A stretch of DNA of 64,000 bases, taken from a virus. The position numbers and the translations under genes were made by a program. Shown piece by piece: positions 771-14,787 of the stretch (position 1 is the stretch's first letter; every line of letters starts with the position of its first letter). Where the stretch lies: positions 1-64,000 of IMG/VR virus record IMGVR_UViG_3300025030_000093; one strand, written 5' to 3'. The notes beneath the pieces were generated by a model. The model had not been told where the DNA came from. It made no database searches and saw nothing but the letters and a program-made list of their open reading frames with translations.

Positions 771-832
771 CAATAATCGTATTCCGCCAAAAAAGCGCCT
801 TATATCACCACTAAAAGAATTTTCTTGACAAC
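763..832. promoter_or_regulatory. Candidate operator pair between divergent promoters
   Basis: GTTGTCAAC at 763-771 is a perfect palindrome around its central base. CTTGACAAC at 824-832 matches the reverse complement at eight of nine bases. Each overlaps the -35 box of one of the two divergent promoters, so a bound dimer could shut both. Binding by the adjacent XRE protein is inference. Confidence 0.5.
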
Positions 833-853
833 GGGAAGTAGTTGTATTAATAT
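825..853 (+). promoter_or_regulatory. Rightward early promoter
   Basis: TTGACA (825-830), a 17-base spacer and TAATAT (848-853) form a good sigma70-type promoter reading into the early operon. The first ATG is at 880, giving a short leader with an AAAAGGAGG ribosome site at 865-872. Confidence 0.75.
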
Positions 854-879: not shown

Positions 880-1023
880 ATGTCCGAGTCTGATTACGCC
901 GAGCAGGAAGAAGATCGCAAGCAGAAAAAAGCAAAACTGATTCAGGTATTAAAGAACTACAAGTGGGAGCTTTTAACATTAGAGGAACTTGAAGAAATCA
1001 TTTATTCGTATTTGATAGTATAG
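880..1023 (+). CDS. Small charged protein, first gene of the early operon
   Basis: This 47-residue protein is rich in Glu and Lys and is predicted largely helical. It starts at ATG 880 behind an AAAAGGAGG site and ends in TAG, which merges into the next ribosome site. I recognise no family. Its position directly after the early promoter would make it one of the first phage proteins made, so a regulatory or host-takeover role is possible but unproven. Confidence 0.75.
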   Translation: MSESDYAEQEEDRKQKKAKLIQVLKNYKWELLTLEELEEIIYSYLIV

Positions 1024-1032
1024 GAGGAATAA

Positions 1033-1233
1033 GTGCTCCGTCATATTAAATTAGACGATGGGGGCGCATGGACAGACGAAGGTGTGCTTTGTCCTAAGTG
1101 CGGATATGATTGGGGTCCGGGCGACTGGATCAAAAGCGAGACAATCGAATTTGAGTGTGATTGCGGAACAAAATTGAAACTCGAAGAATCGGAGATTGCA
1201 GTTCCGATTTACAGGCTGACCATAAGAGAATAA
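1033..1233 (+). CDS. Small zinc-ribbon protein
   Basis: A GTG start at 1033 follows TAGGAGGAATAA. The 66-residue product has a CPKC pair at residues 20-23 and a CDC pair near 43-45 spaced as a zinc ribbon (CPKCGYDW then CDCGTKL). Function is unknown. It is one of about ten very small zinc-ribbon proteins encoded in this window. Confidence 0.75.
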   Translation: MLRHIKLDDGGAWTDEGVLCPKCGYDWGPGDWIKSETIEFECDCGTKLKLEESEIAVPIYRLTIRE

Positions 1234-1242
1234 TACCGAGCA

Positions 1243-1339
1243 GGCCGGGCGGCGTGGCAACGATGATCCACGGCCCCGATTGCGAAGGGGCGACTGCGCG
1301 GATCGCAAAGTCAAGCTGGTTTGAATCCGGCCCCGGCCT
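1243..1339 (+). ncRNA. tRNA-Leu-like structured element A
   Basis: GGCCGGG (1243-1249) pairs perfectly with CCCGGCC (1332-1338). A T-arm-like hairpin (stem GCTGG/CCGGC, loop TTTGAAT, 1315-1331) precedes the 3' strand. CGTGG/CCACG (1253-1257/1268-1272) sits in the D-arm position and GCCCC/GGGGC (1273-1277/1287-1291) in the anticodon-arm position, with a nine-base loop. A hairpin at 1292-1312 resembles the long variable arm of class II tRNAs. The nine-base loop and missing D-loop GG argue against a normal decoding tRNA. It shares both ends with elements B and C. Confidence 0.6.
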
Positions 1340-1362
1340 CTCGGTAAATTAAAGGAGGAAAA

Positions 1363-1773
1363 ATGAAGGTCAAAGCGGTAACTAAAGAAGATTGGAGCGC
1401 GTGGGATAAGATAGCCAAGTTTCAAGATAAGATTCTGACATTCAAAGATGTCCCGGCGATCCGCGAGTATGGTCTATATATGATAGAGCGGATACGGGAT
1501 TATGAAAAGGGTGTCGTGGATATAGTAAGGGTGGACAGAAGTGAAATATCCTTCATTGTCCAGCGGCTTGAAGAACTCAGATGTGATATTGCCGACAAGC
1601 TCAGGAAGATTATAAAACAGCAATATAAGACCGGCGCTATTGGGGTTTACTGGCAGAAGAAAGAAGTTATTCCTTTTGTCTCGATTGATAACCTTGAGGC
1701 CACTACATTTTTCACGCCGGAAGATGTTAATATAGTCAGGGGAGGAGAAGTTAATGCTGACAGCAAAACTTAA
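1363..1773 (+). CDS. Hypothetical protein upstream of the recombinase pair
   Basis: This 136-residue protein follows a strong AAAGGAGG site. It is charged, with a helical centre (about 50-90) and a C-terminal beta-like part ending NIVRGGEVNADSKT. Its last 20 bases overlap the start of the exonuclease gene, so the two are translationally coupled. I recognise no domain. Its position suggests an accessory role in recombination, which is inference only. Confidence 0.7.
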   Translation: MKVKAVTKEDWSAWDKIAKFQDKILTFKDVPAIREYGLYMIERIRDYEKGVVDIVRVDRSEISFIVQRLEELRCDIADKLRKIIKQQYKTGAIGVYWQKKEVIPFVSIDNLEATTFFTPEDVNIVRGGEVNADSKT

Positions 1774-2704
1774 AGAATTAAGGAAGGGCCATATCGGCGC
1801 GTCTGAAGTTCCCGCTCTGTTCGGAGAGCATATCAAGCTCACGGGGACGGACTTGTGGTTAAAGGCCGCTTTCGGCACTGATGATGTAGAACTAACATCT
1901 TCTGCCATTAGAATTGGGGAAGATTTTGAAAAACCGTTGCTTGGGTGGGCGGCAAAAGAACTGAATGTAGAGATTTCGGTTGAGCCTGACGATCTGTTTG
2001 CGGTTTGCGAGGAGCACCCGATTCTCGCCGCCACTTTAGACGCAAAAATCAAGCCATTTCCATCCAAAGAAGCCATTGAGGCGAAAACATCGAGCATGGA
2101 CGGTGATAGCGGCGGCAAGGATAATGAGTGGGGAGAGCCAGGAACCGATCAGATTCCTAATCGAGTGATTCTTCAATGCCAAAGCCAAATTCTTTGTCAT
2201 GGATTAGATCGAGTGTACGTCTCGGCGCTTTTAGGCAGAATGGGTCTGAGAAGGGAACTTTATAAAATTGAACGCAATGACGCTATAATCTCAGCGATTA
2301 TCCAAAGGGCGGAGGAATTTTGGGAGAAATATATCATCACCAAGCTTCAACCGCCAGAAAGCCTTTACGGCCTTGGGTGTATTGATGTCATCAAAAGGAT
2401 TCAGAGACAGCCTGCCACCTGGGCGGAGATCGACGAAGCTCTAATCTTCGATTGGGACGCCAAGCGCAAGGCAAGGTTGGAAGCAGAACACGCAGAGGAT
2501 GACGCCCTTGAGCGTATGTTGACGCCCCTGAAAGACGCGGAGGGCGTTCACCTGTCCGATGGCCGGACGCTGGAATACTTGCCGACAACCAAGAGTATCC
2601 TCGACCAGAAGAAGTTCAAAGCGGAACAGCCTGAACTCTATGAGGCGTTTTTAAAGCCCTCTATTTCACGCACACCCAGATTGAAAGGGACTATCAATGA
2701 GTGA
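1754..2704 (+). CDS. YqaJ/RecE-like viral exonuclease
   Basis: This 316-residue protein has the signature of the YqaJ/lambda-exonuclease nuclease fold. It shows GASEVPALFG at 15-24, the metal-binding aspartate in LAATLDAK (D96), the ExK pair E109/K111, and a glutamine-rich helix QCQSQ at 140-144. Such enzymes digest one strand of double-stranded ends and hand the 3' overhang to an annealase. The next gene, overlapping by 8 bases, is that RecT partner. The start ATG at 1754 lies within the end of the upstream gene. Confidence 0.88.
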   Translation: MLTAKLKELRKGHIGASEVPALFGEHIKLTGTDLWLKAAFGTDDVELTSSAIRIGEDFEKPLLGWAAKELNVEISVEPDDLFAVCEEHPILAATLDAKIKPFPSKEAIEAKTSSMDGDSGGKDNEWGEPGTDQIPNRVILQCQSQILCHGLDRVYVSALLGRMGLRRELYKIERNDAIISAIIQRAEEFWEKYIITKLQPPESLYGLGCIDVIKRIQRQPATWAEIDEALIFDWDAKRKARLEAEHAEDDALERMLTPLKDAEGVHLSDGRTLEYLPTTKSILDQKKFKAEQPELYEAFLKPSISRTPRLKGTINE

Positions 2705-3737
2705 AGAACAGCAGGAATCCACAGAGGTAGCAACGCACACCCCGGCATCGACACAGACAATTCAAACTTATGCTGGTCGGGGATTAAACCTGACCACCTT
2801 TGATGAAATGTGGAGATTTGCCAAGGCCGTTGCCGCATCGGGTCTTGCGCCGAAGGATATGCAGAAGCCTGAGACGCTTTTAGTGGCAATCGAAATGGGA
2901 CTTGAAGTTGGCTTGACGCCGATGCAGGCTATCCAGAATATCGCCGTGATTAATGGACGCCCCGGCTTGTGGGGTGATGCAATCCCCGGCCTTGTGCGCA
3001 GCAGCGGCCACCAAGAGTATTATAAGCAGGAGAAGATTGGTACACCCAGCACAGATGGTTATGGTTATAAGGTTACGAGCAAGCGCAAGGGCGACCCGAA
3101 TCCAATCGAGACAACTTTCACGGTGGCCGATGCTAAGAAAGCAAGCTTATGGACCAAGGCCGGACCGTGGACATTCTATCCTGATAGAATGCTACTTAAT
3201 CGCGCAAGAGCCTTCAATGCCCGCGATAACTTTCCCGATGTACTCAAGGGCATGCGGACGGCGGAAGAAATCATGGATACCGATTTTGAGGTATTAGATT
3301 CTACGCCTCTTGCCGATGGCGACAAGACGAACCGGCTGGCGGAGAAACTGACGAAGAAAGAAGAAGTCGAAAAGGTTATTGAGGTTATGGAAGAAGCAGC
3401 ATACCCGCCCATTTCTGACACGGCGGCCTTTGTCGAACAGGTCGAGAAAGCCACGCAAGAGCGTATTCTTAACGGTCCTCCGCTTGTTGACGGTGATGTG
3501 ATAAAAGCCGAACCGCACCAGTCGCCGCAGGAGTCACCGCAGGAGTCACGGCCAAACGATACTTTACCTACCGGCCAAGTGAAAGCGGGGAAGGCGAGTT
3601 ACATTCTCAAAAAGCTGGAACTCCGAGAAATATCTATGCCGGACTTGCGGCGTGTAACCAAGGAACTCGGTATCAAGTTCGGCATCCCGCAGAACCTCAC
3701 CGAGGAAGAAGCCGGTAGGATATTGGAGAAGTTATAA
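2697..3737 (+). CDS. recT: RecT-family single-strand annealing protein
   Basis: This 346-residue protein contains the RecT core. Around residues 60-100 it has AIEMGLEVGLTPMQAIQNI followed by NGRPGLWGDA, and later a positively charged VRSSGH and KVTSKRKGDP region. The family forms rings or filaments on single-stranded DNA and anneals complementary strands. Residues beyond about 200 are acidic and low in complexity, with QSPQESPQES repeats, and end in a small helical domain that may bind partners such as SSB. It overlaps the exonuclease gene by 8 bases. Confidence 0.88.
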   Translation: MSEEQQESTEVATHTPASTQTIQTYAGRGLNLTTFDEMWRFAKAVAASGLAPKDMQKPETLLVAIEMGLEVGLTPMQAIQNIAVINGRPGLWGDAIPGLVRSSGHQEYYKQEKIGTPSTDGYGYKVTSKRKGDPNPIETTFTVADAKKASLWTKAGPWTFYPDRMLLNRARAFNARDNFPDVLKGMRTAEEIMDTDFEVLDSTPLADGDKTNRLAEKLTKKEEVEKVIEVMEEAAYPPISDTAAFVEQVEKATQERILNGPPLVDGDVIKAEPHQSPQESPQESRPNDTLPTGQVKAGKASYILKKLELREISMPDLRRVTKELGIKFGIPQNLTEEEAGRILEKL

Positions 3738-3758
3738 ACAATCCAGAAGGAGGCTGTA

Positions 3759-3926
3759 ATGCCAGAGACAAAAGCAGTAATAGATGTGTGGATTCCCGTC
3801 GTGGGCGCGCAAGAACAGATGAAAAAAGTGGTGCGTATTTATGATTTAGACACAACGCTCAGAACTGTTTTGGAAAATCTGCCATTGGATGCAGATGATA
3901 TTAGGCTTGAGTTTGCAAACGAATAG
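3759..3926 (+). CDS. Small acidic hypothetical protein
   Basis: An ATG at 3759 follows CCAGAAGGAGG. The 55-residue product begins MPETKAVIDVWIPVVG and ends in an acidic stretch. No family is recognised. It is the last gene before the noncoding structured region at 3927. Confidence 0.65.
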   Translation: MPETKAVIDVWIPVVGAQEQMKKVVRIYDLDTTLRTVLENLPLDADDIRLEFANE

Positions 3927-3928
3927 AA

Positions 3929-4106
3929 CTTTGCGGGCTGTCTAATGCGGCCTTTGGGTGATACGGCAGCGGCCAACTACCATTAGGCCAATACGGAGTA
4001 GATGGGGAATAGCTAACTCACCGAAAAGTATTGGAAGATAAAGTAGCGGCAACCGTATGGGAAGTCTGGTAAGGTGGGAAAATCCAGCGCAAAGTTATGA
4101 CAACAA
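3929..4106 (+). ncRNA. Structured noncoding RNA region (5' half)
   Basis: No convincing gene lies here. Two long imperfect hairpins are adjacent. In the first, CTAATG (3942-3947) pairs with CATTAG (3981-3986), with GGCC/GGCC nested inside. In the second, CCAATAC (3988-3994) pairs with GTATTGG (4028-4034), enclosing GAGTAG/CTAACTC. A smaller CTGG/CCAG hairpin covers 4066-4087. TTGCGG at 3931-3936 could pair with CCGCAA at 4190-4195 inside element B, which would make a pseudoknot. It may form one RNA with element B. I recognise no known RNA family. Confidence 0.5.
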
Positions 4107-4242
4107 GGGCCGGGCGGCTGACTGCCATAGGCCGTAAGGCGGAGGGCATGTTCATGTCTATGGGTTTGGCGGACAGCAGAGAATCAATGCCGCAAGGTGA
4201 GTCTGCTTATGCTAAGAGCCGGTTCGAGTCCGGCCCCGGCCC
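4107..4242 (+). ncRNA. Expanded tRNA-Leu-like element B
   Basis: GGGCCGGG (4107-4114) pairs with CCCGGCCC (4235-4242). A canonical T-arm, GCCGG-TTCGAGT-CCGGC (4218-4234), is the one typical of bacterial tRNA-Leu. Two further stems complete a four-way junction: CCATAG/CTATGG (4125-4130/4158-4163, with an inner GCC-GTAA-GGC hairpin) and AGCAGA/TCTGCT (4175-4180/4202-4207). At 136 nt it is far longer than a tRNA and no seven-base anticodon loop is seen. A short reading frame at 4154-4249 behind GGAGGG is a weaker alternative. Confidence 0.6.
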
Positions 4243-4253
4243 TGTCTAAAATT

Positions 4254-4325
4254 GCGGACCTTGGTGTAATGGCTGCGCGACCGGGGATGGCCCGGAGGGA
4301 GTCGGATAGCCACCGACAGGCCCGT
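4254..4325 (+). ncRNA. tRNA-shaped element D lacking decoding bases
   Basis: The stretch folds as a 71-72 nt cloverleaf. The acceptor is CGGACCT/AGGCCCG (4255-4261/4318-4324, one A-C mismatch), U8 is present, the D-arm is GTG-TAATGGCTG-CGC, the anticodon-position stem is CCGGG/CCCGG (4281-4295), the variable loop has five bases, and the T-position stem is GTCGG/CCGAC with a seven-base loop (4301-4317). The T-loop reads ATAGCCA in place of TTCRANY and the anticodon loop lacks U33. It is either a decayed tRNA or a tRNA mimic. Confidence 0.5.
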
Positions 4326-4350
4326 ACAAAATCTTGAAAGAAGATGAATA

Positions 4351-4539
4351 ATGACCGAGCCTCAGTATTGTTCCGAACCGGACTGCGAAGTTGATTCTTT
4401 ACTTGATGCAGGTTACTACTGTTCCGTCTGCAAACGCTGGATTTGCGAGAAGCATTACAAAGAGAAACACCAGCATTGCCGGGGCTGCGCTACGGACTTG
4501 CCACCGGAAGCCGTTGATCCACGCGATACAAGAATATAG
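4351..4539 (+). CDS. Small double zinc-finger protein
   Basis: This 62-residue protein is packed with metal ligands. It has CSEPDC near 7-12, CSVCKRWICEKH near 24-35, a histidine pair in KHQHC, and CRGC near 43-46. The C-x2-C...C-x2-H...H-x-H-C-x2-C order resembles B-box or AN1-type cross-brace fingers. It starts after the RNA region and ends two bases before element C. Function is unknown. Confidence 0.75.
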   Translation: MTEPQYCSEPDCEVDSLLDAGYYCSVCKRWICEKHYKEKHQHCRGCATDLPPEAVDPRDTRI

Positions 4540-4629
4540 GGCCGGGTGGCGCAAGCCGGGGTCTGGGACGAGAGACCTGCGTTCGAGAAGCGGTCGCCCG
4601 CCGGGATGTAAACCAACCGGCCCCGGCCT
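4540..4629 (+). ncRNA. tRNA-Leu-like structured element C
   Basis: GGCCGGG (4540-4546) pairs with CCCGGCC (4622-4628). The flanks GGCCGGGTGGC and CCGGCCCCGGCC match elements A and B. Inside are GGC-GCAA-GCC (4548-4557), a perfect GGTCT/AGACC stem with an eight-base loop (4560-4577), and GCCGG/CCGGC with a twelve-base loop (4600-4621). The oversized T-position loop makes a functional tRNA unlikely. TTTT follows directly, so it may also slow transcription. Confidence 0.5.
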
Positions 4630-4648
4630 TTTAAAATCCGGAGGAAAG

Positions 4649-4828
4649 ATGAAGATTTACGAAGGACCAGGAAAGTCAAGAGAGGCGTGGAGCCGGGGAC
4701 GCGGACGAAAACTTGTGATAAATATAATTCAGGGCGGGGCAGAACTACCCATATTTATTTCTCCACGCAACGCCAAGCGTGTGATAGACGAGATTCGCAA
4801 GGCGATCAAGGAAAGTGAGGGAAAATGA
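4649..4828 (+). CDS. Small basic hypothetical protein
   Basis: The ATG at 4649 follows GGAGGAAAG directly downstream of element C. The 59-residue product is basic (SREAWSRGRGRK) and ends in a helix (RNAKRVIDEIRKAIKES). Its stop overlaps the next ATG. Earlier in-frame ATGs lie within element C and lack a ribosome site. No family is recognised. Confidence 0.7.
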   Translation: MKIYEGPGKSREAWSRGRGRKLVINIIQGGAELPIFISPRNAKRVIDEIRKAIKESEGK

Positions 4829-5088
4829 TCTTCGACTGGACTGATCCCGAAAAAAGGATACTGGATGAAATTGCCGATCCCGCAATGGGGGAGGAAGATA
4901 TTATCTTCGACTACGCCGCCCTGATCGTCTTAACTGGCTATGGCAAGCCCGATCCCCGCATTGATACTGCCAAGATCAACGCGGCAATCGTCAATCGCTG
5001 GTCCAAAACGGCGCGTGATCGGATCAAAAAGGCGGCCTGGAAAAAAGTGGAAGCGGCGTGGGCAAACGAAAGAGAGGGGGGAGAATGA
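4825..5088 (+). CDS. Hypothetical protein
   Basis: This 87-residue protein is joined to both neighbours by ATGA overlaps. It is acidic in the first half (DPAMGEEDIIFDYAAL) and basic and tryptophan-rich in the second (RWSKTARDRIKKAAWKK). No domain is recognised. Confidence 0.7.
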   Translation: MIFDWTDPEKRILDEIADPAMGEEDIIFDYAALIVLTGYGKPDPRIDTAKINAAIVNRWSKTARDRIKKAAWKKVEAAWANEREGGE

Positions 5089-5276
5089 AGGCAGAATATC
5101 CCGATGGTGAAAAGACAAAGGGAATCAGCACTGGATCGAGCAAGGGTTGGTACACCAAGGACTTATTCTTTCTTGAGTGCTGGTGTGATGGTTTTTACGG
5201 CCAGACTACTTTCGACCGCGCAGCGGCGAGGAAACTCCAAGAAGAACTTCGCCTGTTCTGCAAGGGGGAGGAATGA
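5085..5276 (+). CDS. Small hypothetical protein
   Basis: I place the start at ATG 5085, which overlaps the previous stop and has GGGGGAG upstream. The 63-residue product contains an aromatic patch (WYTKDLFFLECWCDGFYG) and a C-terminal helix. No family is recognised. Confidence 0.65.
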   Translation: MKAEYPDGEKTKGISTGSSKGWYTKDLFFLECWCDGFYGQTTFDRAAARKLQEELRLFCKGEE

Positions 5277-5698
5277 TGGACCTCGAAACGTTTTGGAAGG
5301 GCCTCGGCGCGGAAATAGCCACAAGTCCAATAGAAAAAATTCCGGGCGGTATATTGGCATTGTGGACAGTGCAAGGCAACTACATCGGCTTTGTTCGCAT
5401 CCTGCCCAATGGAGAACATGATTGCTATTTATTCGATCCCTACGATGCCGAGCGGGTCCCGCTGGAAGTGCTGTGGAAAGGACTGGAAAAGAAAATGGCG
5501 GAACGAGCGGCAAGAGGCAATTATGAACCTCGAATGAAAGAAGCCGAGGCCGTGGTTATTTTACGCTACAATCCCCTGTACGGCTATCAAGTGTGTACGG
5601 GCAACTTTAATCTGATAACCGATTATATTTATAGCCTTGATCCCCGCGCTTGTATTATCTCCGCCATCGAGCGGCTTATCGAGGAGGCCGAGAAATGA
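5273..5698 (+). CDS. Hypothetical protein, paralogue of the gene at 15178
   Basis: This 141-residue protein starts MMDLETFWKGLGAEI, with either of two adjacent ATGs possible behind GGGGGAGG. Its N-terminus and its C-terminal pattern (Y-x-L-x-x-x-A-x-I-x-A) resemble the protein at 15178-15546, which begins MNLEKFWVAAGAV. The family appears confined to phages and its function is unknown to me. Confidence 0.7.
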   Translation: MMDLETFWKGLGAEIATSPIEKIPGGILALWTVQGNYIGFVRILPNGEHDCYLFDPYDAERVPLEVLWKGLEKKMAERAARGNYEPRMKEAEAVVILRYNPLYGYQVCTGNFNLITDYIYSLDPRACIISAIERLIEEAEK

Positions 5699-5904
5699 CT
5701 GACAAATCGCGGGTGAATCCTCTCGTTGCTGAGATCAGAAGTCGTGGTTTGTATTGGGGCGAAGTTGTAGAAAGGCCGGGTGGTGAACAAATACTAAAGG
5801 CTGAAATGGCCGAGCTTTTGCGACAACACGGCCTTGAACTTTTGTGGATTATCAAGAATTGGGCGGACATGAAACATGAGGAGGCCGAGAATGAAAGCAA
5901 GTGA
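5695..5904 (+). CDS. Hypothetical protein
   Basis: The ATG at 5695 overlaps the previous stop and follows GAGGAGGCC. The 69-residue product is mainly helical and ends KHEEAENESK. Its coding end overlaps the next gene by 14 bases. No family is recognised. Confidence 0.65.
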   Translation: MTDKSRVNPLVAEIRSRGLYWGEVVERPGGEQILKAEMAELLRQHGLELLWIIKNWADMKHEEAENESK

Positions 5905-6265
5905 GTTTCTCGCACTTTGTGAAGACAACTGGGAGGTGGCAAACTGCGAAGTGCAGGCCGCTATGGGACATACTTATTCTGAAGGGCTTTATATTGATAG
6001 CCCCGAAGAAAAACGCCGCGCCGATGCTGTCCTTGAGCGCGAGGTCGAGGACGCGCTGTTCAAACTCGCGGATGAAAAGGATTTAGGCTTGACCGGGTTT
6101 CGTGACCAAGAGTATAAGGATGTCAATGGAAAATGGACATGCTTTATTCGGTTCCAACTTGCACTTAGGGCGCGAGATGGGGATACAATAATGATGGTAT
6201 TTGCCAGCAATAAGTCTTGGCTCATGGCCGCCGCGCTGGTCGAACTAACCACGGAGAGAAAATGA
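5891..6265 (+). CDS. Hypothetical protein
   Basis: The ATG at 5891 is preceded by GAGGAGG. The 124-residue product has a helical N-terminal half and a beta-like WTCFIRFQLALRAR segment near residue 82. Its stop overlaps the next start. No family is recognised. Confidence 0.65.
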   Translation: MKASEFLALCEDNWEVANCEVQAAMGHTYSEGLYIDSPEEKRRADAVLEREVEDALFKLADEKDLGLTGFRDQEYKDVNGKWTCFIRFQLALRARDGDTIMMVFASNKSWLMAAALVELTTERK

Positions 6266-6477
6266 TTATTACTACTCCCGGCAAATATCGCCTGCTTGCT
6301 CCGTTATTTACGCGGAACACAATCAGTTGCGGCACTATACCAGCAGGCCAAATTATAGAAATTACACAAGTGGATTCGTGCCTGCATAAAGCTATTGGCC
6401 CTAAATTACTTGGCTGGTGCTATTGGGATATAGACGCTGAATCAGTGCCGAAGGAGGCTTCCGATGGAACTGCTTGA
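6262..6477 (+). CDS. Small beta-rich hypothetical protein
   Basis: The ATG at 6262 overlaps the previous stop. The 71-residue product (GKYRLLAPLF, TIPAGQIIEITQVD) looks like a small beta-barrel. The final coding bases overlap the next gene by 14 bases and carry its GGAGG site. Confidence 0.65.
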   Translation: MIITTPGKYRLLAPLFTRNTISCGTIPAGQIIEITQVDSCLHKAIGPKLLGWCYWDIDAESVPKEASDGTA

Positions 6478-7114
6478 CCTGACAAAGCTGACGGAAAGGC
6501 TTGAGCGAATACAAAATTATTATCCGCCTGAAACTGCCGTACTGAAGCGATATGTAATAGATGTATCCGATCTTCTTGCCGAGGACGTGGCGCTGCGGAA
6601 AGAGAACGAAAGACTCCGGGCCAAGCTCGAAAAGGCCATAGTAGAAATTAAAACAGTCCGCCCTCTTATGGTGCGGACATTTCGGATGCTCTTGTACTGG
6701 CATGAGGAGTTTGGCAACCGCCGTACAGACGATGACGAACAAAGTTTATTGTTAGACCAGATGGAGAAGGCCATGACAGGGCCGAAAGAGGAATATAACC
6801 GTGGCGTTGATACGGCCTATCACGCCAATGACGCCTTAATTACTTCGCTCAAGGCCAAACTTGAGAAGGTACGGACTGGTTTAGAAATAATAGTAAACAA
6901 GAGGCAGCCGGTGGACAACCTGATGGGCGACAAAGATATTGCTGCCATCCTGCTCGCCGATCTTGATTCAGCCGCAGATACGCCCTTTGATACTTTGATG
7001 GATAAGCTCCGCGAAACCAAGATTCAGTCTATCGGCCAAGCCGAGGCGAACATGGCAAATGACTCTGACTTAGCCGGAGAAGTGGAGCATTTTAATGATG
7101 AGTTTGAACGCTAA
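6464..7114 (+). CDS. Coiled-coil hypothetical protein
   Basis: This 216-residue protein has two predicted coiled-coil stretches, roughly 45-75 (ALRKENERLRAKLEKAIVEI) and 125-145. It ends in an acidic tail. The start ATG at 6464 follows CGAAGGAGG. A structural or scaffold-like accessory role is possible; no family is recognised. Confidence 0.7.
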   Translation: MELLDLTKLTERLERIQNYYPPETAVLKRYVIDVSDLLAEDVALRKENERLRAKLEKAIVEIKTVRPLMVRTFRMLLYWHEEFGNRRTDDDEQSLLLDQMEKAMTGPKEEYNRGVDTAYHANDALITSLKAKLEKVRTGLEIIVNKRQPVDNLMGDKDIAAILLADLDSAADTPFDTLMDKLRETKIQSIGQAEANMANDSDLAGEVEHFNDEFER

Positions 7115-7135
7115 CAGGAGAAGTGGAGGCGAAAG

Positions 7136-7396
7136 ATGTCGGAGCGTGAACTTAAATCGCCACGCTGGACCGGAGCGTATTCAGGCAGCATTGAACGAAT
7201 AACCCAAAAGGAAATGGATAGACTCGAATCCTCCAACTCTACACTTATGGAAACGGCTCAAGCTTTTTGCCTGAAGTTTCTGGCCTATGTCAAGTCCAAC
7301 GAGGGCGACCGGATACCGGCTTACTATCATACTGAGTTTACAGCACTGAGAAACCTGGTCTTGCCCGAAAAAGAAGTGGAGGAGAAAGATGCGTGA
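7136..7396 (+). CDS. Helical hypothetical protein
   Basis: The start at 7136 follows GGAGGCGAAAG. The 86-residue product is helical and charged and ends in a KEVEEKDA tail. It overlaps the next gene by 8 bases. No family is recognised. Confidence 0.65.
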   Translation: MSERELKSPRWTGAYSGSIERITQKEMDRLESSNSTLMETAQAFCLKFLAYVKSNEGDRIPAYYHTEFTALRNLVLPEKEVEEKDA

Positions 7397-7721
7397 TAGT
7401 GATGCCGGGCGTAGGCAGGAACTTGCCATAGAGAATGCCGCGCTCAAGGCCACCAACCTTGAATTAGAGCAGCAAGTAGCACACTGGAAAGCATCTTACT
7501 ACCCACTCAAGGAAGATTTTGAGGGTCTGCGGAAAAATGTAGCGGGCCTCGTAACTGATGGTGTCTTGTCTGATCTTAAACTCAAGGCCGAGGTCGAGAA
7601 GCTGGAGAAGGTGCTGGATAAGATATTAAAGGTTGCCGTCCTATACTATCCAGATTATACGCCCCTACGGAAGCAGTTTGACGAGATAATCAGCATCGCC
7701 CGCCAAGCGCGGAAGGAGTGA
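7389..7721 (+). CDS. Coiled-coil hypothetical protein
   Basis: This 110-residue protein has a heptad-like N-terminal region (AIENAALKATNLELEQQVAH) and a second helix near KAEVEKLEKVLDKILK. The start follows GAGGAGAAAG. It shares style with the proteins at 6464 and 7726. Function is unknown. Confidence 0.65.
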   Translation: MRDSDAGRRQELAIENAALKATNLELEQQVAHWKASYYPLKEDFEGLRKNVAGLVTDGVLSDLKLKAEVEKLEKVLDKILKVAVLYYPDYTPLRKQFDEIISIARQARKE

Positions 7722-7725
7722 AAGA

Positions 7726-7884
7726 ATGACAAAACTTGAAGAATTACAGGCTGAGTTCAAACTAATTAAGGCGGAGCTTTCTGCTGCACAACGGGCACTA
7801 AATGAATTGGAAATAGATAGAAACGCCTTTAAAAGCGTTGCGGTTTCGCTATCAAAGGCCCTCGAAAGATACCATAAGGAGTGA
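7726..7884 (+). CDS. Short coiled-coil protein
   Basis: An ATG at 7726 follows GGAAGGAGTG. The 52 residues form one long predicted coiled coil (MTKLEELQAEFKLIKAEL). The end lies two bases before the next start. Function is unknown. Confidence 0.65.
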   Translation: MTKLEELQAEFKLIKAELSAAQRALNELEIDRNAFKSVAVSLSKALERYHKE

Positions 7885-7887
7885 AAG

Positions 7888-8046
7888 ATGAAAGTAAGCA
7901 TCCACGCTATTGCACCAGCTATAATTCTTGCGGCGTTAGTCGGCGGCCCGTTTCTTATCAAGGCATACCTCATGTATATTTCTTGGCTTTTTGAGGAGGC
8001 TTGTCCATTTACTACTTTGTGGCCTTCGTGGCCTTTTACATGGTAA
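7888..8046 (+). CDS. Small membrane protein
   Basis: This 52-residue protein has one hydrophobic segment at residues 8-25 (APAIILAALVGGPFLIK) and an aromatic C-terminus (LWPSWPFTW). The start follows AAGGAGTG. One of several single-pass peptides in the operon; role unknown. Confidence 0.6.
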   Translation: MKVSIHAIAPAIILAALVGGPFLIKAYLMYISWLFEEACPFTTLWPSWPFTW

Positions 8047-8057
8047 AGGAGCATCCA

Positions 8058-8420
8058 ATGACCACTGAACAGATAGCCGAGGCGCTGGGGCTAAAAGAGG
8101 TTGAGTACCAACCATCTGATCAGGCGGGAAGTAATGTCTATGAGAAGCTATGGGTCAACGCTGATGAATCGTACTGCTACGGGAGTCTCGGCGAAGTAGA
8201 GAAGTGGCTTGCCTCTCCCGATGGAGAAAAGGCCGTCCGGGACAAAGTGCGGGAACTGTGGTGTGAGGGTTACAGGTGCATTGATTTAGTTCTGCGCGAC
8301 AACGGACAGGTTTTAGGCTTGCTCGACGAAATGGGCGAGCGTCGCAACTTTATTGACGCTGTCGAGTCCTCCGCGTGGCTTGCCGCGCTGGAATTTTTAT
8401 GGGAAAGGAAAGAGAAATGA
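8058..8420 (+). CDS. Hypothetical protein
   Basis: I start at ATG 8058, which has AAAGGAG seven bases upstream. The 120-residue product begins MTTEQIAEALGLKEVEY, like a small helical recognition motif. It has a conserved-looking YCYGSLGEVEKWLASPDG segment. No family is recognised. Confidence 0.65.
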   Translation: MTTEQIAEALGLKEVEYQPSDQAGSNVYEKLWVNADESYCYGSLGEVEKWLASPDGEKAVRDKVRELWCEGYRCIDLVLRDNGQVLGLLDEMGERRNFIDAVESSAWLAALEFLWERKEK

Positions 8421-8620
8421 GCGACAATCTGGTGTCTGGACTACACGATCAAATTTGTCGCGCAAAAGAGATACTTCCGCATTATGAGGCGGTTCCAGCA
8501 GGAGCCTTTGGCGCAATAATGATCCGAGCCGCAATTCAACAAGGGGAAAGCGCCTTATCCGGTGGGAATATTGAAGAAATGATTAGGGCGCACAAATTAC
8601 TTGAGGGGATTGCAGAATGA
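8417..8620 (+). CDS. Helical hypothetical protein
   Basis: An ATGA overlap links it to the previous gene. The 67-residue product is helical, with a HDQICRAKEIL start and an IRAHKLLEGIAE end. No family is recognised. Confidence 0.6.
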   Translation: MSDNLVSGLHDQICRAKEILPHYEAVPAGAFGAIMIRAAIQQGESALSGGNIEEMIRAHKLLEGIAE

Positions 8621-8688
8621 AACGCTTACTACTTCTACTACTTCTCCTGCCGGTGCTGTCATTACCGGCGCGACGTGGGGCACGATAA
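8617..8688 (+). pseudogene. Truncated signal-peptide gene fragment
   Basis: The reading frame gives only 23 residues, MKRLLLLLLLLPVLSLPARR and a little more. This is a signal peptide with no mature protein. It begins within the previous stop codon. It shares a 26-bp identical stretch with the signal-peptide region of the gene at 9042, so it is probably the remnant of a recombination between related secreted-protein genes. It could instead be a small hydrophobic peptide. Confidence 0.55.
8633..8658. repeat. 26-bp direct repeat, copy 1
   Basis: The sequence TTCTACTACTTCTCCTGCCG and its next six bases are identical at 8633-8658 and 9055-9080. Both copies encode signal-peptide cores. Confidence 0.85.
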
Positions 8689-8706
8689 AGAAGGAAAAGC
8701 GTCCAG

Positions 8707-9045
8707 GTGCGATTTAATATCAAAAATACAATAATAGATTTAGCTCTAATAGTTTGGTTATCATCCGGTGTGCTTGTCGGGATTGCGGCCCTTGCCGTTA
8801 TATTTAATAGCCACGAGAACTGTGTTGAAGATAACCGTAACTACTTGCAACAACGAGGATTCTATTATATCTTAACGGACTCGACTCAACAGTTCTATGT
8901 ATTAAACGATCACAACTATCTTTATTTATACAGAGATACGACAGCCTATCATAACTATTTAAGGAAACAAGAACTTATAGAACGCGAAAAGCTGTTGTAC
9001 CTAAAACACTTACTACTTGGCAATAACAAAGGAGGGATAAAATGA
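8707..9045 (+). CDS. Single-pass membrane protein
   Basis: A GTG start at 8707 gives 112 residues. The transmembrane helix is at about 11-35 (LALIVWLSSGVLVGIAALAV). A periplasmic-type region with many Tyr and Asn follows (NYLQQRGFYYILTDSTQQFY). The ribosome site is weak. It overlaps the next gene by 4 bases. It may act at the envelope, but I recognise no family. Confidence 0.6.
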   Translation: MRFNIKNTIIDLALIVWLSSGVLVGIAALAVIFNSHENCVEDNRNYLQQRGFYYILTDSTQQFYVLNDHNYLYLYRDTTAYHNYLRKQELIEREKLLYLKHLLLGNNKGGIK

Positions 9046-9788
9046 AGCTCATCTTTCTACTACTTCTCCTGCCGGTGCTGGCCGGAGCACAGGTTGATTC
9101 TTCAAATGGATATTGGAGGTTTATCCCATACCAAGCGAGAGGAGGGGGGCCGCTTTCTCGCTACTCTTTCGGGCATTGTGAGTGGGTTCCCGCTGTCATG
9201 TCCCGGCACAAGGCGGAAAAAGAATGGCAGGCGATATACGATTTCTGTGTGGCGGCCTTCGACCACGATCTTGCGACCATATTTGGCAAAACCTACATAG
9301 TCAACTTGGATTGTTTTGCCGATCATCAAACCATACTGTGCCCGATTTGTAGAAAAGATTGGTACAAGGGAAGTAATACTCTTATTCTCAAACATAAGGG
9401 CAAAATCATCGACCGCATTAAAGCCGTTAAGTTATTTCCACCGCGCGGAATTTTTCAATGGTACGCCCTGCCCTCGCATCGTGGGGACGGCCCCGTAACG
9501 CATGAGCACGGCAAGCACTCGTGCGTCCTCTATTTTGATGGTCTAACAATAAAAGAACAGTCCAGGCAGCAGGCAACTATGCCAGTGATGCCGACAAAAT
9601 GGTCAGTGGAGGGCAAGATATTTGCACTTCAGGCCCGCCTTGACTCCCTTGAGGCGAAGTTGTCCAGGGTGCATATCGACTCGGTTATGGTTGCAGGTGA
9701 GTGGAGTTTCACGCCTAGACGGGTAGATCAGTATTGGATTCCACCGCACTGGAAGCAGATAATCTCATTCGACCCGGAGGGGGAATGA
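9042..9788 (+). CDS. Secreted hypothetical protein
   Basis: This 248-residue protein has a clear signal peptide, MKLIFLLLLLPVLAGAQ, with likely cleavage before QVDSS. Cysteines in LCPICRKDW suggest one metal site or disulphide. A short coiled segment (KIFALQARLDSLEAKL) lies near residue 195. The start follows AAAGGAGGG. It could modify the cell surface, for example in superinfection exclusion, but this is speculation. Confidence 0.65.
   Translation: MKLIFLLLLLPVLAGAQVDSSNGYWRFIPYQARGGGPLSRYSFGHCEWVPAVMSRHKAEKEWQAIYDFCVAAFDHDLATIFGKTYIVNLDCFADHQTILCPICRKDWYKGSNTLILKHKGKIIDRIKAVKLFPPRGIFQWYALPSHRGDGPVTHEHGKHSCVLYFDGLTIKEQSRQQATMPVMPTKWSVEGKIFALQARLDSLEAKLSRVHIDSVMVAGEWSFTPRRVDQYWIPPHWKQIISFDPEGE
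9055..9080. repeat. 26-bp direct repeat, copy 2
   Basis: Identical to 8633-8658, within the signal-peptide codons of the gene at 9042. Confidence 0.85.
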
Positions 9789-9877
9789 CAAAGCGTGGGC
9801 ATATCTTACCCGGTGAGTATCCGGGCTTAGTGCATCCGCCATACTCTACTGAAAGAGCGCCTGGCAATCTCTTTTAA
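9785..9877 (+). CDS. Thirty-residue peptide
   Basis: An ATGA overlap follows GGAGGGGGA. The product begins MTKRGHILPGEYPGLVHPPY and is proline- and glycine-rich. It is probably real because of the strong ribosome site, but no function can be given. Confidence 0.5.
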   Translation: MTKRGHILPGEYPGLVHPPYSTERAPGNLF

Positions 9878-9886
9878 GGAGGCCCC

Positions 9887-10216
9887 ATGCAAGCCTTGAC
9901 GCAGGAACAAGCCGAACGCGCCGCGAAATGCTGCGGTCCGCAGTGGGTGTCAGAAGTTGCCGTGATGTCTTTTACGCAGAGAACCGATCCCGACTTCTGG
10001 TTTCCGAGATTGTGGCAAGAATTAAGAATACGCTGCCCGAAGTTCAATATGATTGGCGACTCAAATGAACCCCGATTTGAATTTCATTTAGGAAGTAGAA
10101 TTGTTTGGAATGATGATATGTTTCTCGCCCTGCTGGAGGCAATCGAGGCGCTGGAGGGGGAGAAAGATGAAGCCCTACGGCGAGTTAATCTCTTTTCTCT
10201 GGACAACTCCAATTAG
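9887..10216 (+). CDS. Hypothetical protein
   Basis: The ATG at 9887 follows AAGGAGGCCCC. The 109-residue product has a helical start (TQEQAERAAKCCG), a tryptophan-rich centre (DFWFPRLWQEL) and a helical end. It overlaps the next gene by 50 bases. No family is recognised. Confidence 0.65.
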   Translation: MQALTQEQAERAAKCCGPQWVSEVAVMSFTQRTDPDFWFPRLWQELRIRCPKFNMIGDSNEPRFEFHLGSRIVWNDDMFLALLEAIEALEGEKDEALRRVNLFSLDNSN

Positions 10217-10286
10217 GTATTTATTCTACTGGATTGCCGCAGTCGCCATTGGTCTTGTGATTATATTTTTTTCGCTGGCGAACTAA
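10167..10286 (+). CDS. Small membrane peptide
   Basis: The ATG at 10167 follows GGAGGGGGAG. The 39 residues include one transmembrane helix (YLFYWIAAVAIGLVIIFFSL). It overlaps the end of the previous gene in another frame. Role unknown. Confidence 0.55.
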   Translation: MKPYGELISFLWTTPIRYLFYWIAAVAIGLVIIFFSLAN

Positions 10287-10305
10287 TATCCGAGGAGAAT
10301 TTAAA

Positions 10306-10350
10306 ATGCGCGGAAAGATTGACATCCCCGAAAATAGAAAGGGGAGATAG
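10306..10350 (+). CDS. Fourteen-residue leader peptide ahead of the HNH gene
   Basis: The frame MRGKIDIPENRKGR follows CGAGGAG. Its TAG stop directly abuts the HNH ATG. It may couple translation into the endonuclease gene, or be incidental. Confidence 0.35.
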   Translation: MRGKIDIPENRKGR

Positions 10351-11145
10351 ATGAGGTTTATTGATTTAACAGGGCAACAATTCGGAAAATGGATGACCAT
10401 ACAGCAAGCACCGAACAAAGATGGGCGCACGACGTGGTTGTGCCGGTGCGAGTGTGGTACGGAGGCCATCATAAAGTCTTTCATACTACGCGGGGGTGAG
10501 TCAACCCATTGCACTGACTGTAATGGCCCGTGCAGGACAATTGATTTAATGGGACAGAGATTTGGAAAGTGGCTTGTAATCGCTGGGCCTTATCACAAAG
10601 GACGCCATGCTGGCTGGTTATGCCGCTGCGAATGCGGGGCAGAGGCGATATTGGGTGGAGCTTGTCTTCGACGAGGTGGCTCAAAGCAATGTCGTTCTTG
10701 TGCATCAAAGGGACATGGGTTATCACGAACTATAATTTACCATAGATGGGAATCCATGATGGGCAGGTGCTACGGCGATAAGCGCTCATTCTATAAAAAT
10801 TATGGTGGGCGTGGAATTAAAGTTTGCGATGAATGGCATAACCCCGTGGCGTTTGTCGAATGGGCTTTAGCAAACGGCTACGAAGAAAATCTGTCTCTTG
10901 ATCGTATTGACAACGACGGCGATTATTGTCCTGAGAACTGCCGATGGGCAACGTTAAAACAACAGGCGAGAAATAAAAGAACGTCTCGATTGATTGATAT
11001 TGATGGTACTATAAAGACATTGAGCGAATGGTCTGAAGCGGCGGGTTTGTGTAGAGAAACAATTAGGTATCGCTATCTGCGCGGCTGGCCGAAGAATCAG
11101 TTGTTATGTGCACCCCCAAGCCATAGCAATCGAGTTTGTCCCTAA
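10351..11145 (+). CDS. HNH homing-type endonuclease with duplicated zinc ribbon
   Basis: This 264-residue protein has two N-terminal copies of a treble-ligand module. Each copy has FGKW, then LCRCECG, then a distal CxxC (CTDC or CRSC), at about 1-55 and 65-115. The nuclease core spans about 120-210, with RWESMMGRC, YGGRGIKVCDEW and SLDRIDNDGDYCPENCRW. The C-terminal part (TLSEWSEAAGLCRETIRYR) looks like a NUMOD-type DNA-binding helix-turn-helix. Such free-standing genes are mobile in phages. A GGGGAG site precedes the ATG. Confidence 0.85.
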   Translation: MRFIDLTGQQFGKWMTIQQAPNKDGRTTWLCRCECGTEAIIKSFILRGGESTHCTDCNGPCRTIDLMGQRFGKWLVIAGPYHKGRHAGWLCRCECGAEAILGGACLRRGGSKQCRSCASKGHGLSRTIIYHRWESMMGRCYGDKRSFYKNYGGRGIKVCDEWHNPVAFVEWALANGYEENLSLDRIDNDGDYCPENCRWATLKQQARNKRTSRLIDIDGTIKTLSEWSEAAGLCRETIRYRYLRGWPKNQLLCAPPSHSNRVCP

Positions 11146-11205
11146 CGCACTCCGAAGGGCGGTGCATGAGTTGGATTTGAAGCATAGGAGAAATGGGAAG
11201 GCCGA

Positions 11206-11499
11206 ATGACCTGTATCTTCTGCGGCGGCATCGAACACGCTTGGAACTTCTTTCGTAAGAAGCGTTCACCTTGCCGGGTAGGAGATAACGCGGTCAGTAT
11301 AGTATGCTCTACCTGTGTCCAGCGGTTACTGCGGGGCAAGAAAGAGACACTACAAAAAGCACTCGACAAAGCAACGGAACTTGACCGGCCAGATCAGGTG
11401 AAAGCGTTAAAGCATCTGGTGTTCGAGAATATATCTACTACGCTTTCTACGGAAGGCGTACGCGAACGAAAAGTAAGTCTGCGGCACAAAGGCGGCTGA
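11206..11499 (+). CDS. Zinc-finger hypothetical protein
   Basis: This 97-residue protein has CIFC at 3-6 and CSTC at 34-37, a likely zinc site, followed by a charged helical C-terminus. The start follows GGAAGG. No family is recognised. Confidence 0.65.
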   Translation: MTCIFCGGIEHAWNFFRKKRSPCRVGDNAVSIVCSTCVQRLLRGKKETLQKALDKATELDRPDQVKALKHLVFENISTTLSTEGVRERKVSLRHKGG

Positions 11500-11557
11500 A
11501 AATAGATCGTTGATTGTAGAGCACCGTAGGCGTCCAGTTACAACAAGGAGGAGAACA

Positions 11558-11704
11558 ATGCGGCTTTTGCTTGATATATTAGAAGTACTTTTCTATTGGG
11601 TGATGATACTGGTCGCATATACTATATGTGCAATTCTTGTGGTAGTTGTTGGGCTATTCTGGCTTGCGAATGGACCGAGATTGGGCATAGAAAACAACGC
11701 ATAA
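11558..11704 (+). CDS. Small membrane protein
   Basis: I start at ATG 11558, which has AAGGAGGAG upstream; an in-frame ATG at 11510 has none. The 48 residues are mostly one long hydrophobic segment (VMILVAYTICAILVVVVGLF). Role unknown. Confidence 0.6.
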   Translation: MRLLLDILEVLFYWVMILVAYTICAILVVVVGLFWLANGPRLGIENNA

Positions 11705-11715
11705 AGGAGCGTGAA

Positions 11716-11907
11716 ATGGCTCTTAATTTAAGAAAATATAAAGATTCACCGCCGGAACTTCTGCGCGAGATCGAAAAATTGCGGGACGAAAACGATCATT
11801 TGTATTATTTGCTGAACGAATGGATGGCAGAACATGACAATTACGATTGGCTTTCAGATGAGACTCGCAAGGTACTGGATATAGCAGATAACCCGGAGGG
11901 GAAATGA
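11716..11907 (+). CDS. Helical hypothetical protein
   Basis: The ATG at 11716 follows AAAGGAGCG. The 63-residue product is a charged helix (LLREIEKLRDENDHLYYLL) with a short acidic tail. It overlaps the next gene by 4 bases. Confidence 0.65.
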   Translation: MALNLRKYKDSPPELLREIEKLRDENDHLYYLLNEWMAEHDNYDWLSDETRKVLDIADNPEGK

Positions 11908-12302
11908 CCTTTTATCTTGCAAGTAGGTATGATAACAAGTTCTTTTTGCGCGGAGTGCGGGATAAACTTAGTGCAATGGGCCATGAAGTATTCAGTAATT
12001 GGATCGACGAAAAGGAGCCGCCGAATATACAATTAGATGAAGTGCCGGTTGAGAAACTACAAGAATACGCCTTACAGGACATAACAGAGATCGAGGAGGT
12101 TGATGCTTTTGTCCACTTTCAATCTATGAACCGTCCGAATATTCGCGGCGGGGCCTTAGTTGAGTTCGGCATGGCTTACATTTGGGGATTGGAAATGATT
12201 ATCGTTGGCGACCGGGTGAATATATTTGACTTCCTGCCAGCGGTAACTTGTTTTCCGACGGTTGAAGAATTTCTAACTTGGGCGGAAAAGGAGAGCGCAT
12301 GA
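11904..12302 (+). CDS. Nucleoside 2-deoxyribosyltransferase-like protein
   Basis: This 132-residue protein matches the fold of nucleoside 2-deoxyribosyltransferases. It opens with a YLASRYD strand and has an ALQDITEIEEVDAFV helix-strand with aspartates at 59 and 67. It then has RGGALVEFGMA, in which E87 fits the catalytic glutamate, and a final strand GLEMIIVG. These enzymes move deoxyribose between bases, and phages use relatives in nucleotide salvage or DNA modification. ATGA overlaps link it to both neighbours. Substrate is unknown. Confidence 0.75.
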   Translation: MTFYLASRYDNKFFLRGVRDKLSAMGHEVFSNWIDEKEPPNIQLDEVPVEKLQEYALQDITEIEEVDAFVHFQSMNRPNIRGGALVEFGMAYIWGLEMIIVGDRVNIFDFLPAVTCFPTVEEFLTWAEKESA

Positions 12303-12616
12303 ATCTCTTTGATATTATAGAGTTATGTGGAAGGAATAAGTCTGGGGGATTTTTGGGCATTGGATGGGAACGTGAGGGCGTATGGCTGACCGAGAATAAA
12401 CGCTTTTATGAAGATCGTTGCCATCGTCCTTACGAAAAGATAGTTGTTTCCCATTCCCTGAAAGATGCCTTGATGGATTATATTGACTCCAAGCTCCAAT
12501 ACTGCCGGAAGGTATATGCAGAAGCCGGTACAACGCGAGTTCGTATGCGCGAAGATGAGGCACTATTTTTAGAGGCCCGCGCTGAATTAGATAAAATTGC
12601 GGAAAAGGAGAAATGA
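12299..12616 (+). CDS. Hypothetical protein
   Basis: The start at 12299 overlaps the previous stop and follows AAGGAGAG. The 105-residue product has a Gly/Trp-rich centre (GGFLGIGWEREGVWLTE) and a charged C-terminal helix. No family is recognised. Confidence 0.65.
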   Translation: MNLFDIIELCGRNKSGGFLGIGWEREGVWLTENKRFYEDRCHRPYEKIVVSHSLKDALMDYIDSKLQYCRKVYAEAGTTRVRMREDEALFLEARAELDKIAEKEK

Positions 12617-12617
12617 A

Positions 12618-12791
12618 ATGGAACTTAAAAGTCCAACTAAGTTGACAAATGACGAATGGAGAAACGCCGAGGGATTACAAAAGTTACTATGTATGCTGTT
12701 CGTGTTTGGCTCACCTATACTTATCGCGTGTATTGTGCTTGGCGTAATGTATTGTACCTATCTATTGGGACAGTGGGCGAAAACCTTATGA
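12618..12791 (+). CDS. Small membrane protein
   Basis: The ATG at 12618 follows AAGGAGAAATGAA. The 57-residue product has a hydrophobic segment at about 27-50 (LLCMLFVFGSPILIACIVLG). It overlaps the next gene by 4 bases. Role unknown. Confidence 0.55.
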   Translation: MELKSPTKLTNDEWRNAEGLQKLLCMLFVFGSPILIACIVLGVMYCTYLLGQWAKTL

Positions 12792-12967
12792 CCTTTCCTG
12801 CTGGCTGGCCGTGTAGCTCAGAGACATGGAGAAAGCAGATGAAGGAACTCCGGGAACGGCCACTTGAATTATATTGGTACGAAGGCTATCTTTATATTAA
12901 CGGCTCCTTGCATGGTTACGGCATGGAGAGGACAAGGCATAGGCCAAGAATAGGAGAGAAAAAATGA
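12788..12967 (+). CDS. Small hypothetical protein
   Basis: The 59-residue product is rich in Trp, Tyr and Arg (LYWYEGYLYINGSLHGYG). The ATG overlaps the previous stop; no strong ribosome site is seen, so translational coupling is likely. It overlaps the next gene by 4 bases. Confidence 0.55.
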   Translation: MTFPAGWPCSSETWRKQMKELRERPLELYWYEGYLYINGSLHGYGMERTRHRPRIGEKK

Positions 12968-13203
12968 ACTTTCCTTTGCCGGAAGCATTAAAGGAGTTAA
13001 GGAGAGCAACTAATGGCAATTTCAGTATTAATTCCCGGCAAGAGGTAGTTGGCGGCGAAACCATCACTATACGCGCAGGCGAAGTTGGCGAAACTCAGCG
13101 AAGTTTACAATATATATGTCGAGACAATAACGATATGAATTTTGATCCGTGGCTATGGGAACTTCAGGGCGCTTTAAACGCTATCCTGAAAGGACAAGGC
13201 TAA
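12964..13203 (+). CDS. Hypothetical protein
   Basis: This 79-residue protein starts MNFPLPEALKELRRA behind a GGAGAG site. It has a beta-like centre (GGETITIRAG) and ends one base before the next ATG. No family is recognised. Confidence 0.6.
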   Translation: MNFPLPEALKELRRATNGNFSINSRQEVVGGETITIRAGEVGETQRSLQYICRDNNDMNFDPWLWELQGALNAILKGQG

Positions 13204-13503: not shown

Positions 13504-13699
13504 AGCAGAAGAACGGCAAGCGATGCTGGATGAGATTGAAGCCCTGAAACTATCAAAAGAGTCCATACGATTAGACCTCAATCTCGCAAGAGCCTATTTA
13601 TCCTGTGCGGTCAATAGCCTCGACTGGGACGGCTGGGAACGGAACAAGGGAAAAGTTTCACTGTTCTTAGCGACACTGAAGGAAGTATATGATGATTGA
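13496..13699 (+). CDS. Helical hypothetical protein
   Basis: The start at 13496 follows GAAGGAG. The 67-residue product is helical (MLDEIEALKLSKESIRLDLN). It resembles the preceding protein in style. Function is unknown. Confidence 0.6.
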   Translation: MNRAEERQAMLDEIEALKLSKESIRLDLNLARAYLSCAVNSLDWDGWERNKGKVSLFLATLKEVYDD

Positions 13700-13725
13700 T
13701 TTCATAATTCCCATAGGGAGTAGAC

Positions 13726-14250: not shown

Positions 14251-14271
14251 ACGGCGAGAAGAACTATATCC

Positions 14272-14771: not shown

Positions 14772-14787
14772 CGAGAAAGGAGAACTG

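Follow-up and report, generated by a model that had tools for sequence, protein, structure and literature searches.

What occupies the few long gaps without a plausible gene in an otherwise tightly packed phage early operon? The locus that raises this question lies at positions 3929–4345 of a 64,000-nt window (the whole stretch of DNA analysed, IMG/VR record IMGVR_UViG_3300025030_000093, positions 1 to 64,000), which covers most of a 66.5-kb virus record. The long rightward operon runs from 880 to 19049, with most genes overlapping or lying a few bases apart, and has a likely early promoter and a divergent repressor gene at its head (Table 1). In its first part, long gaps without a plausible gene are found only at 1234–1362, 3927–4350 and 4540–4648, and all three are occupied by the elements described here as A to E. 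More uncalled stretches, of 47–134 nt, appear downstream from about 10.2 kb and may contain small genes. No promoter-like or terminator-like site was detected on the coding strand from recT to the downstream elements, and no intrinsic-terminator-like site on that strand between 700 and 5200.

Table 1 Features of the early region of the window and the five candidate RNA elements.
Feature	Position	Strand	Remarks
HTH repressor gene	508–753	minus	Divergent; faces the likely early promoter
Likely early promoter, TTGACA-17-TAATAT	825–853	+	Consensus match only; just 5' of the first rightward gene (880)
Element A	1236–1344	+	tRNA-like; acceptor 1242–1249/1332–1339, five more outer pairs beyond a bulged C
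RecE-like (YqaJ) exonuclease gene	1754–2704	+	PF09588, 3.2e-8; phrog_434, 1.9e-37
RecT-like ssDNA annealing protein gene	2697–3737	+	phrog_561, 1.3e-50
55-aa ORF	3759–3926	+	Shine-Dalgarno present; stop codon directly 5' of element E
Element E	3927–4096	+	9-bp closing stem 3927–3935/4088–4096; begins one base after the upstream stop codon
Element B	4106–4243	+	tRNA-like; 9-bp acceptor-type stem 4106–4114/4235–4243, T-arm 4218–4234
Element D	4254–4325	+	Degenerate 72-nt cloverleaf; acceptor GCGGACC/GGCCCGT with one A.C mismatch
62-aa ORF	4351–4539	+	Cys-rich; between elements D and C
Element C	4538–4630	+	Acceptor and T-stem sequences as in B; 12-nt T-loop 4605–4616

The original prediction placed here one structured noncoding RNA of about 400 nt. 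Its noncoding and structured character was supported: the only ORFs in the stretch are of 31–50 aa and match no PHROG family, the small ones over element B included, and the stems that had been drawn can be read in the bases, namely 3942–3947/3981–3986 (CTAATG/CATTAG), 3988–3994/4028–4034 (CCAATAC/GTATTGG), 4066–4069/4084–4087 (CTGG/CCAG), 4107–4114/4235–4242 (GGGCCGGG/CCCGGCCC), 4125–4130/4158–4163 (CCATAG/CTATGG), 4175–4180/4202–4207 (AGCAGA/TCTGCT) and 4218–4222/4230–4234 (GCCGG/CCGGC). A position directly downstream of the RecE/RecT-like genes also stands, but with the 55-aa ORF in between, and the cloverleaf can be drawn, but with a mismatched acceptor. The claim of one RNA was not supported. 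Each stem belongs to one of three closed elements arranged in tandem, and kindred elements recur separately in the two other gaps (A and C). A perfect 9-bp stem, AACTTTGCG/CGCAAAGTT, which had been overlooked, encloses the first 170 nt as a separate domain, so that the stretch is better read as E, B and D; because its bases (3927–3935/4088–4096) include those of a proposed pseudoknot between 3931–3936 and 4190–4195, the latter is unsupported. The folding energy of the whole 417 nt was unremarkable (z = -1.48; 8 of 100 shuffles as low), and a single 400-nt fold was rejected in favour of separate units. A likeness to large RNAs such as GOLLD or ROOL had been considered; in the Rfam search that had been suggested, covariance models including these two gave no match to A–E at curated or permissive thresholds. 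The stretch is best read as a row of three tandem small elements, E, B and D, between two early genes.

The outer sequence GGCCGGGYGGC...GCYGG-loop-CCGGC-CCCGGCC is common to A, B and C, while their middles differ, and each folds alone as an acceptor and T-arm around enlarged inner arms in both the minimum free energy (MFE) and the centroid structure. The original prediction had seen the four-way junction, the T-arm-like hairpin and the cloverleaf but missed this link to a tRNA scaffold. A strict acceptor plus T-arm scan of both strands of the 64 kb returned only A and B (shuffle mean 0.1), and a scan blind to T-loop sequence returned A, B and C and nothing else from the three gaps, a result equalled by 1 of 200 shuffles; the architecture of A, B and C is beyond chance. 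Element B fully shows an acceptor helix that runs on into a 5-bp T-arm with a TTCRA loop, and A does so with 4 of 5 loop consensus positions; in C the stems are present around a loop of 12 nt, and E and D conform only loosely. The acceptor stems of A and B are longer than 7 bp, and the T-loop is non-canonical in C, D and the allele of Salinibacter phage 3_13.

Element B has the clearest form: its T-arm, GCCGG-TTCGAGT-CCGGC, carries a canonical tRNA T-loop, the 9-bp helix runs straight into this hairpin, and larger arms (4125–4163 and 4175–4207 as first drawn) stand for the D/anticodon half. The acceptor and T-arm appear in both MFE and centroid, while the exact inner arms vary between drawings (z = -1.99; 6 of 200 shuffles). 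Element A fills the gap between genes 1033–1233 and 1363–1773, with a T-arm at 1315–1331 (loop TTTGAAT) and three inner hairpins, one of which could present TGC (z = -2.85; 3 of 200 shuffles). Element C begins inside the stop codon of gene 4351–4539, and about 9 nt separate its 3' end from the Shine-Dalgarno sequence of gene 4649–4828 (z = -1.66; 11 of 200 shuffles). Element E contains inner arms at 3942–3986 and 3988–4034 and a T-arm-like hairpin (4066–4087) lying flush against the closing stem's 3' strand; that stem is found in MFE and centroid, yet z is only -1.10. A 9-bp repeat within a 424-nt gap is not an uncommon chance event; E, which is plausible and the weakest of the larger elements, is favoured only by its start one position past the stop codon and by the abutting hairpin. 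Element D, with a D-loop-like CTTGGTGTAATGG and a T-stem at 4301–4317 around the non-canonical loop ATAGCCA, is a weak case of a tRNA-like element (z = -0.58; the cloverleaf is not the MFE).

Standard tools did not recover these elements. The RF00005 tRNA model gave no match between 1000 and 5000 even at E <= 10, ARAGORN called no tRNA or tmRNA for A–E, and an anticodon arm with a 7-nt loop is absent from B, C and E and possible only in A. BLASTN of the locus against a phage collection returned no match.

Relatives were gathered by RecE/RecT homology alone, without use of the motif. Single-sequence queries with RecT or RecE found three RecT loci and no RecE loci; alignment queries found more, all distant, and no close homologue of A–E was obtained through either. 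A tRNA-like element lies directly 3' of recT in L122 (about 123 nt) and L121 (about 60 nt). Upstream of recE, L187 shows a class-II-type D-arm sequence and a T-arm flanking a replaced middle, along with an additional small multi-branch element, and L192 has a 41-nt mini-element (1632–1672) made of acceptor, TTGGTGTAT and T-arm. In L190, a 56-nt closed element (z = -3.5) stands just 5' of the ribosome-binding site of the recT-like gene. A 39-nt mini-element between phage genes of L005 (reverse strand) consists of acceptor, TGGTGTA and canonical T-arm; the TGGTGTA stretch of the L192 and L005 forms may act like a D-loop. Elements at the loci found through RecE/RecT are intergenic, each preceding a Shine-Dalgarno sequence. 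Most other RecE/RecT loci have no such element, which is therefore recurrent and not universal. Outside ARAGORN calls, the strict architecture occurred in 26 rows (~18 distinct) of the scanned loci versus 0–2 in shuffles; since these loci had been picked by a T-arm pattern, the count demonstrates that the architecture exists but is no measure of its frequency. L140, L050a and L004a reach the RF00005 gathering threshold.

Several further arrangements came to light in these collections. A short viral contig (L050:214–734) carries three tandem tRNA-like elements of 103, 151 and 95 nt with differing acceptors before one gene. L004:1800–2073 holds two adjoining elements with the same acceptor and T-arm and different middles, one of which encodes CCA; the pair resembles A, B and C in its common scaffold and different middles. 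The gaps after recT in L129–L133 are GC-rich and structured, with GCATTGGC-like motifs before CAATACACRAAAGGAT...ATG, and are possibly another intergenic RNA type. The majority of database matches to the T-arm pattern proved to be ordinary tRNA-Leu or attachment-site fragments, which we excluded from the relatives. When the relatives' other intergenic gaps were scanned for closed multi-branch elements, most of what came back was AT-rich noise.

Cultured Salinibacter phages provide a natural exchange at one position. The locus is present in 186 of them. In 35, a 128-nt tRNA-like RNA (L140:2768–2895), annotated as 'tRNA-Ala' and scoring 43.2 bits with RF00005, lies upstream of a recT homologue; the other 151 have a different segment. 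Two aligned examples of this alternative (L141:214–282, about 70 nt) have no evident shared sequence with the former and again form an acceptor, GCAGGCG/CGCCTGC, and a T-stem, GCCGG/CCGGC; the folding energy lies in the ordinary range (z = -0.99). One flank matches exactly between the alleles and the other almost exactly. Judged by these predicted pairings, the swap preserves shape.

A known phage RNA has the same plan. T4 species 1 RNA (rnaC, NC_000866) is 139 nt long and annotated as a small, stable RNA, and we know of no role for it. Its T-arm, CCGGG-TTCGAAT-CCCGG, is continuous with the acceptor helix, and two long arms replace the D/anticodon half, so that, as in A, B and C, acceptor and T-arm close enlarged inner arms. 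In an alignment of rnaC from five phages, 95% of cells were paired and 11 pairs had changed on both sides, matched by 0 of 500 shuffles and by no slid control; for example, the acceptor reads CAGTCCG/CGGACTG in phiR1-RT (7/7 paired) and CGATTCG/CGTTTCG in T4 (5/7). The T4-like alignments are small (five rows each), with homologues chosen by us, and the rnaC matches listed were enterobacterial T4-like phages. A second RNA of 123–130 nt occurs in Enterobacter, Kosakonia and Klebsiella T4-like phages (L145:357–486; L329–L332), adjoining rnaC in Enterobacter phage Entb_45 and either unannotated or labelled 'tRNA-OTHER' in the records examined; around a nearly identical middle, GATTTGT/ACAAATC forms its acceptor in one group and TGTTCAG/CTGAACA does so in another. 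No sequence homology to rnaC was seen for the window region, which has no match in the phage collection. The T4 RNA differs further in its setting, a tRNA cluster instead of the gaps between protein genes in a recombination operon, in its unrelated middle and, in T4, in two T.T mismatches of the acceptor. A tRNA-like stable phage RNA thus has a precedent in T4 species 1 RNA, which the elements resemble; what is new is the location and the exchanged middles.

The acceptor/T-arm half of tRNA is the main part recognised by RNase P and in CCA addition. As it is this half that the elements retain, the simplest account is excision by host tRNA-processing enzymes, and we consider it somewhat probable that the locus is a set of tandem tRNA-scaffolded RNAs with exchangeable middles, co-transcribed and excised in this way. 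Transcription would include each element in the polycistronic early message, where it follows a stop codon and precedes the next ribosome-binding site. Retention of the 'top half' of a tRNA (acceptor helix plus T-arm) would let the host enzymes recognise the element, with RNase P cutting the 5' end and RNase Z, or exonucleases together with CCA addition, producing the 3' end. An unrelated structured domain, or cargo, would take the place of the D/anticodon half. Excision would then yield stable RNAs like T4 species 1 RNA, each displaying its structured middle, and would also sever the early mRNA between genes. The positions and architecture of A, B and C, with a common outer scaffold and different middles, are read directly from the bases; their transcription, cleavage by RNase P and stability are what we infer. 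Bearing on the ends, CCA is encoded exactly one base past the acceptor in 6 of the 24 elements on our list (0.4 expected, P = 1.5e-6), a count that is evidence on ends and not on prevalence because the list was made by us, many entries coming from the T-arm pattern search. None of A–E encodes CCA, and nor does the phage's own ordinary tRNA at 54770.

Comparison of relatives suggests that the middle matters, being conserved in T4-like phages, and that it changes fast elsewhere, as in A, B and C and in the Salinibacter swap. Our guess is that the cargo acts on the RNA machinery of host or phage, as a regulator or a decoy. More tentatively still, phages may widely carry a natural tRNA-scaffold system for exchangeable RNA cargo, T4 species 1 RNA included, in which host enzymes would excise cargo from early mRNAs, forms would range from 40-nt minis to 200 nt, and cargo would turn over fast because of a role in phage–host conflict (decoys, regulators, anti-defence RNAs); we regard this broader proposal as possible and the narrower one for the window as distinctly the more probable.

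Mitochondrial transcripts are punctuated by tRNAs, and the elements might likewise be pure punctuation, folds that only cut or insulate the early mRNA between genes around a middle that is filler. Their span from stop codon to Shine-Dalgarno sequence in an otherwise overlapping operon, the minimal 39–41-nt versions in L192 and L005, and the Salinibacter swap, which suggests that any tRNA-like element suffices, all point this way. Large, elaborate middles would however be costly if 41 nt were enough, one cut does not need three tandem elements, and T4-like relatives conserve the middle while the acceptor drifts by compensatory change, so that we think this explanation rather unlikely. It is considerably less likely that the elements are decayed ordinary tRNA genes without current function. 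The degenerate cloverleaf of D and the D-arm-like remnants in L187, L004 and L145 would fit decay; against it speak the complete pairing of acceptor and T-stems in A, B and C, the compensatory change in relatives, repeated independent occurrence from different tRNA backgrounds, and persistence in compact genomes.

Irregular tRNAs that still work, allo-tRNA-like or with removable introns, charged and decoding, would account for the hairpin of A that could present TGC and for the relatives that score as tRNA with a long insert, and irregular tRNA polycistrons have been reported in soil metatranscriptomes (PMC7609411). B, C and E nevertheless have no consistent anticodon arm, the mini-elements are too small for one, no splice-site pattern is common to the middles, and in vitro charging of irregular ones by E. 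coli synthetases failed, according to a review (PMC7609411); we judge this very improbable. The ornate 400-nt RNA of the GOLLD/ROOL kind would explain many stems within one noncoding stretch, but not the closed tandem units or the tRNA-like unit that recurs alone as A and C, and with no Rfam family match and a pseudoknot that competes with a better stem its probability is slight. Least probable of all are inverted repeats acting on DNA or transcription, such as terminators, attenuators, and recombination or attachment sites: the repeats are strong and GC-rich, TTTTAAAA follows element C, phages use tRNA 3' ends as attachment sites and fragments of this kind were among the pattern matches, but the coding strand of this region is free of intrinsic-terminator-like sites, the full 5' acceptor partner is present, unlike in an attachment-site fragment, and the T-loop consensus is retained in A and B.

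The proposal of tRNA-scaffolded cargo can be set beside several known systems. Phages P1 and P7 encode the C4 antisense RNA (RF01695), which RNase P cuts from an operon transcript and which acts in trans; A–E differ in lacking an Rfam match, and a search for C4-style targeting gave a few 13–14-nt complements, among which no start-site-directed antisense stretch stood out. tmRNA also has tRNA-like ends and a replaced anticodon domain, whereas A–E contain no tag reading frame, receive no ARAGORN tmRNA call and are far shorter. Irregular tRNA polycistrons, known mostly from environmental sequence and with no known role, and allo-tRNAs (Mukai 2017, via review PMC7609411) resemble A–E as tandem irregular tRNA-like genes with extra arms. 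Allo-tRNAs keep an anticodon arm and have 8/4 or 9/3 acceptor/T stems, whereas the T-stems of A, B and C are of 5 bp, with B at 9 + 5 and A at 8 + 5 (plus outer pairs) and no clear anticodon arm in either. In an engineered tRNA scaffold, RNA inserted at the anticodon stem gave a processed, stable RNA in E. coli (PMC3753655). The likeness lies in a retained acceptor and T-arm with foreign RNA in place of the anticodon part; that scaffold is artificial and keeps a full D-arm, of which A–E have a remnant at most. We found no publication describing a group of tRNA-scaffolded phage RNAs, subscription literature aside.

Should the proposal be correct, it would define an overlooked group of phage RNAs, recognisable by an acceptor helix and T-arm around a non-tRNA middle and often missed by standard tRNA and RNA-family tools, that connects environmental phages, cultured Salinibacter phages and T4. 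The purpose of T4 species 1 RNA would become testable by comparison and middle swaps, phages would have reached the same tRNA-scaffold trick as RNA engineers, and a new route to regulatory or anti-defence RNAs would open.

Elsewhere in the window, a tandem array of a 27-bp unit, GTTTCGACCGTGCCGCCAGACAAGACC (3.9 copies), occupies positions 1–106 at its start. The terminase large subunit (50090–51565, minus strand) shares 50% identity with its counterpart in Caudoviricetes sp. vir555 (BK063671), whose recorded host is Methanomicrobiales. ARAGORN called a 'tRNA-Gln' at 54681–54756, with a poor acceptor stem and no clear CCA, that may be an irregular element, and adjoining it at 54770–54840 is an ordinary tRNA without encoded CCA.
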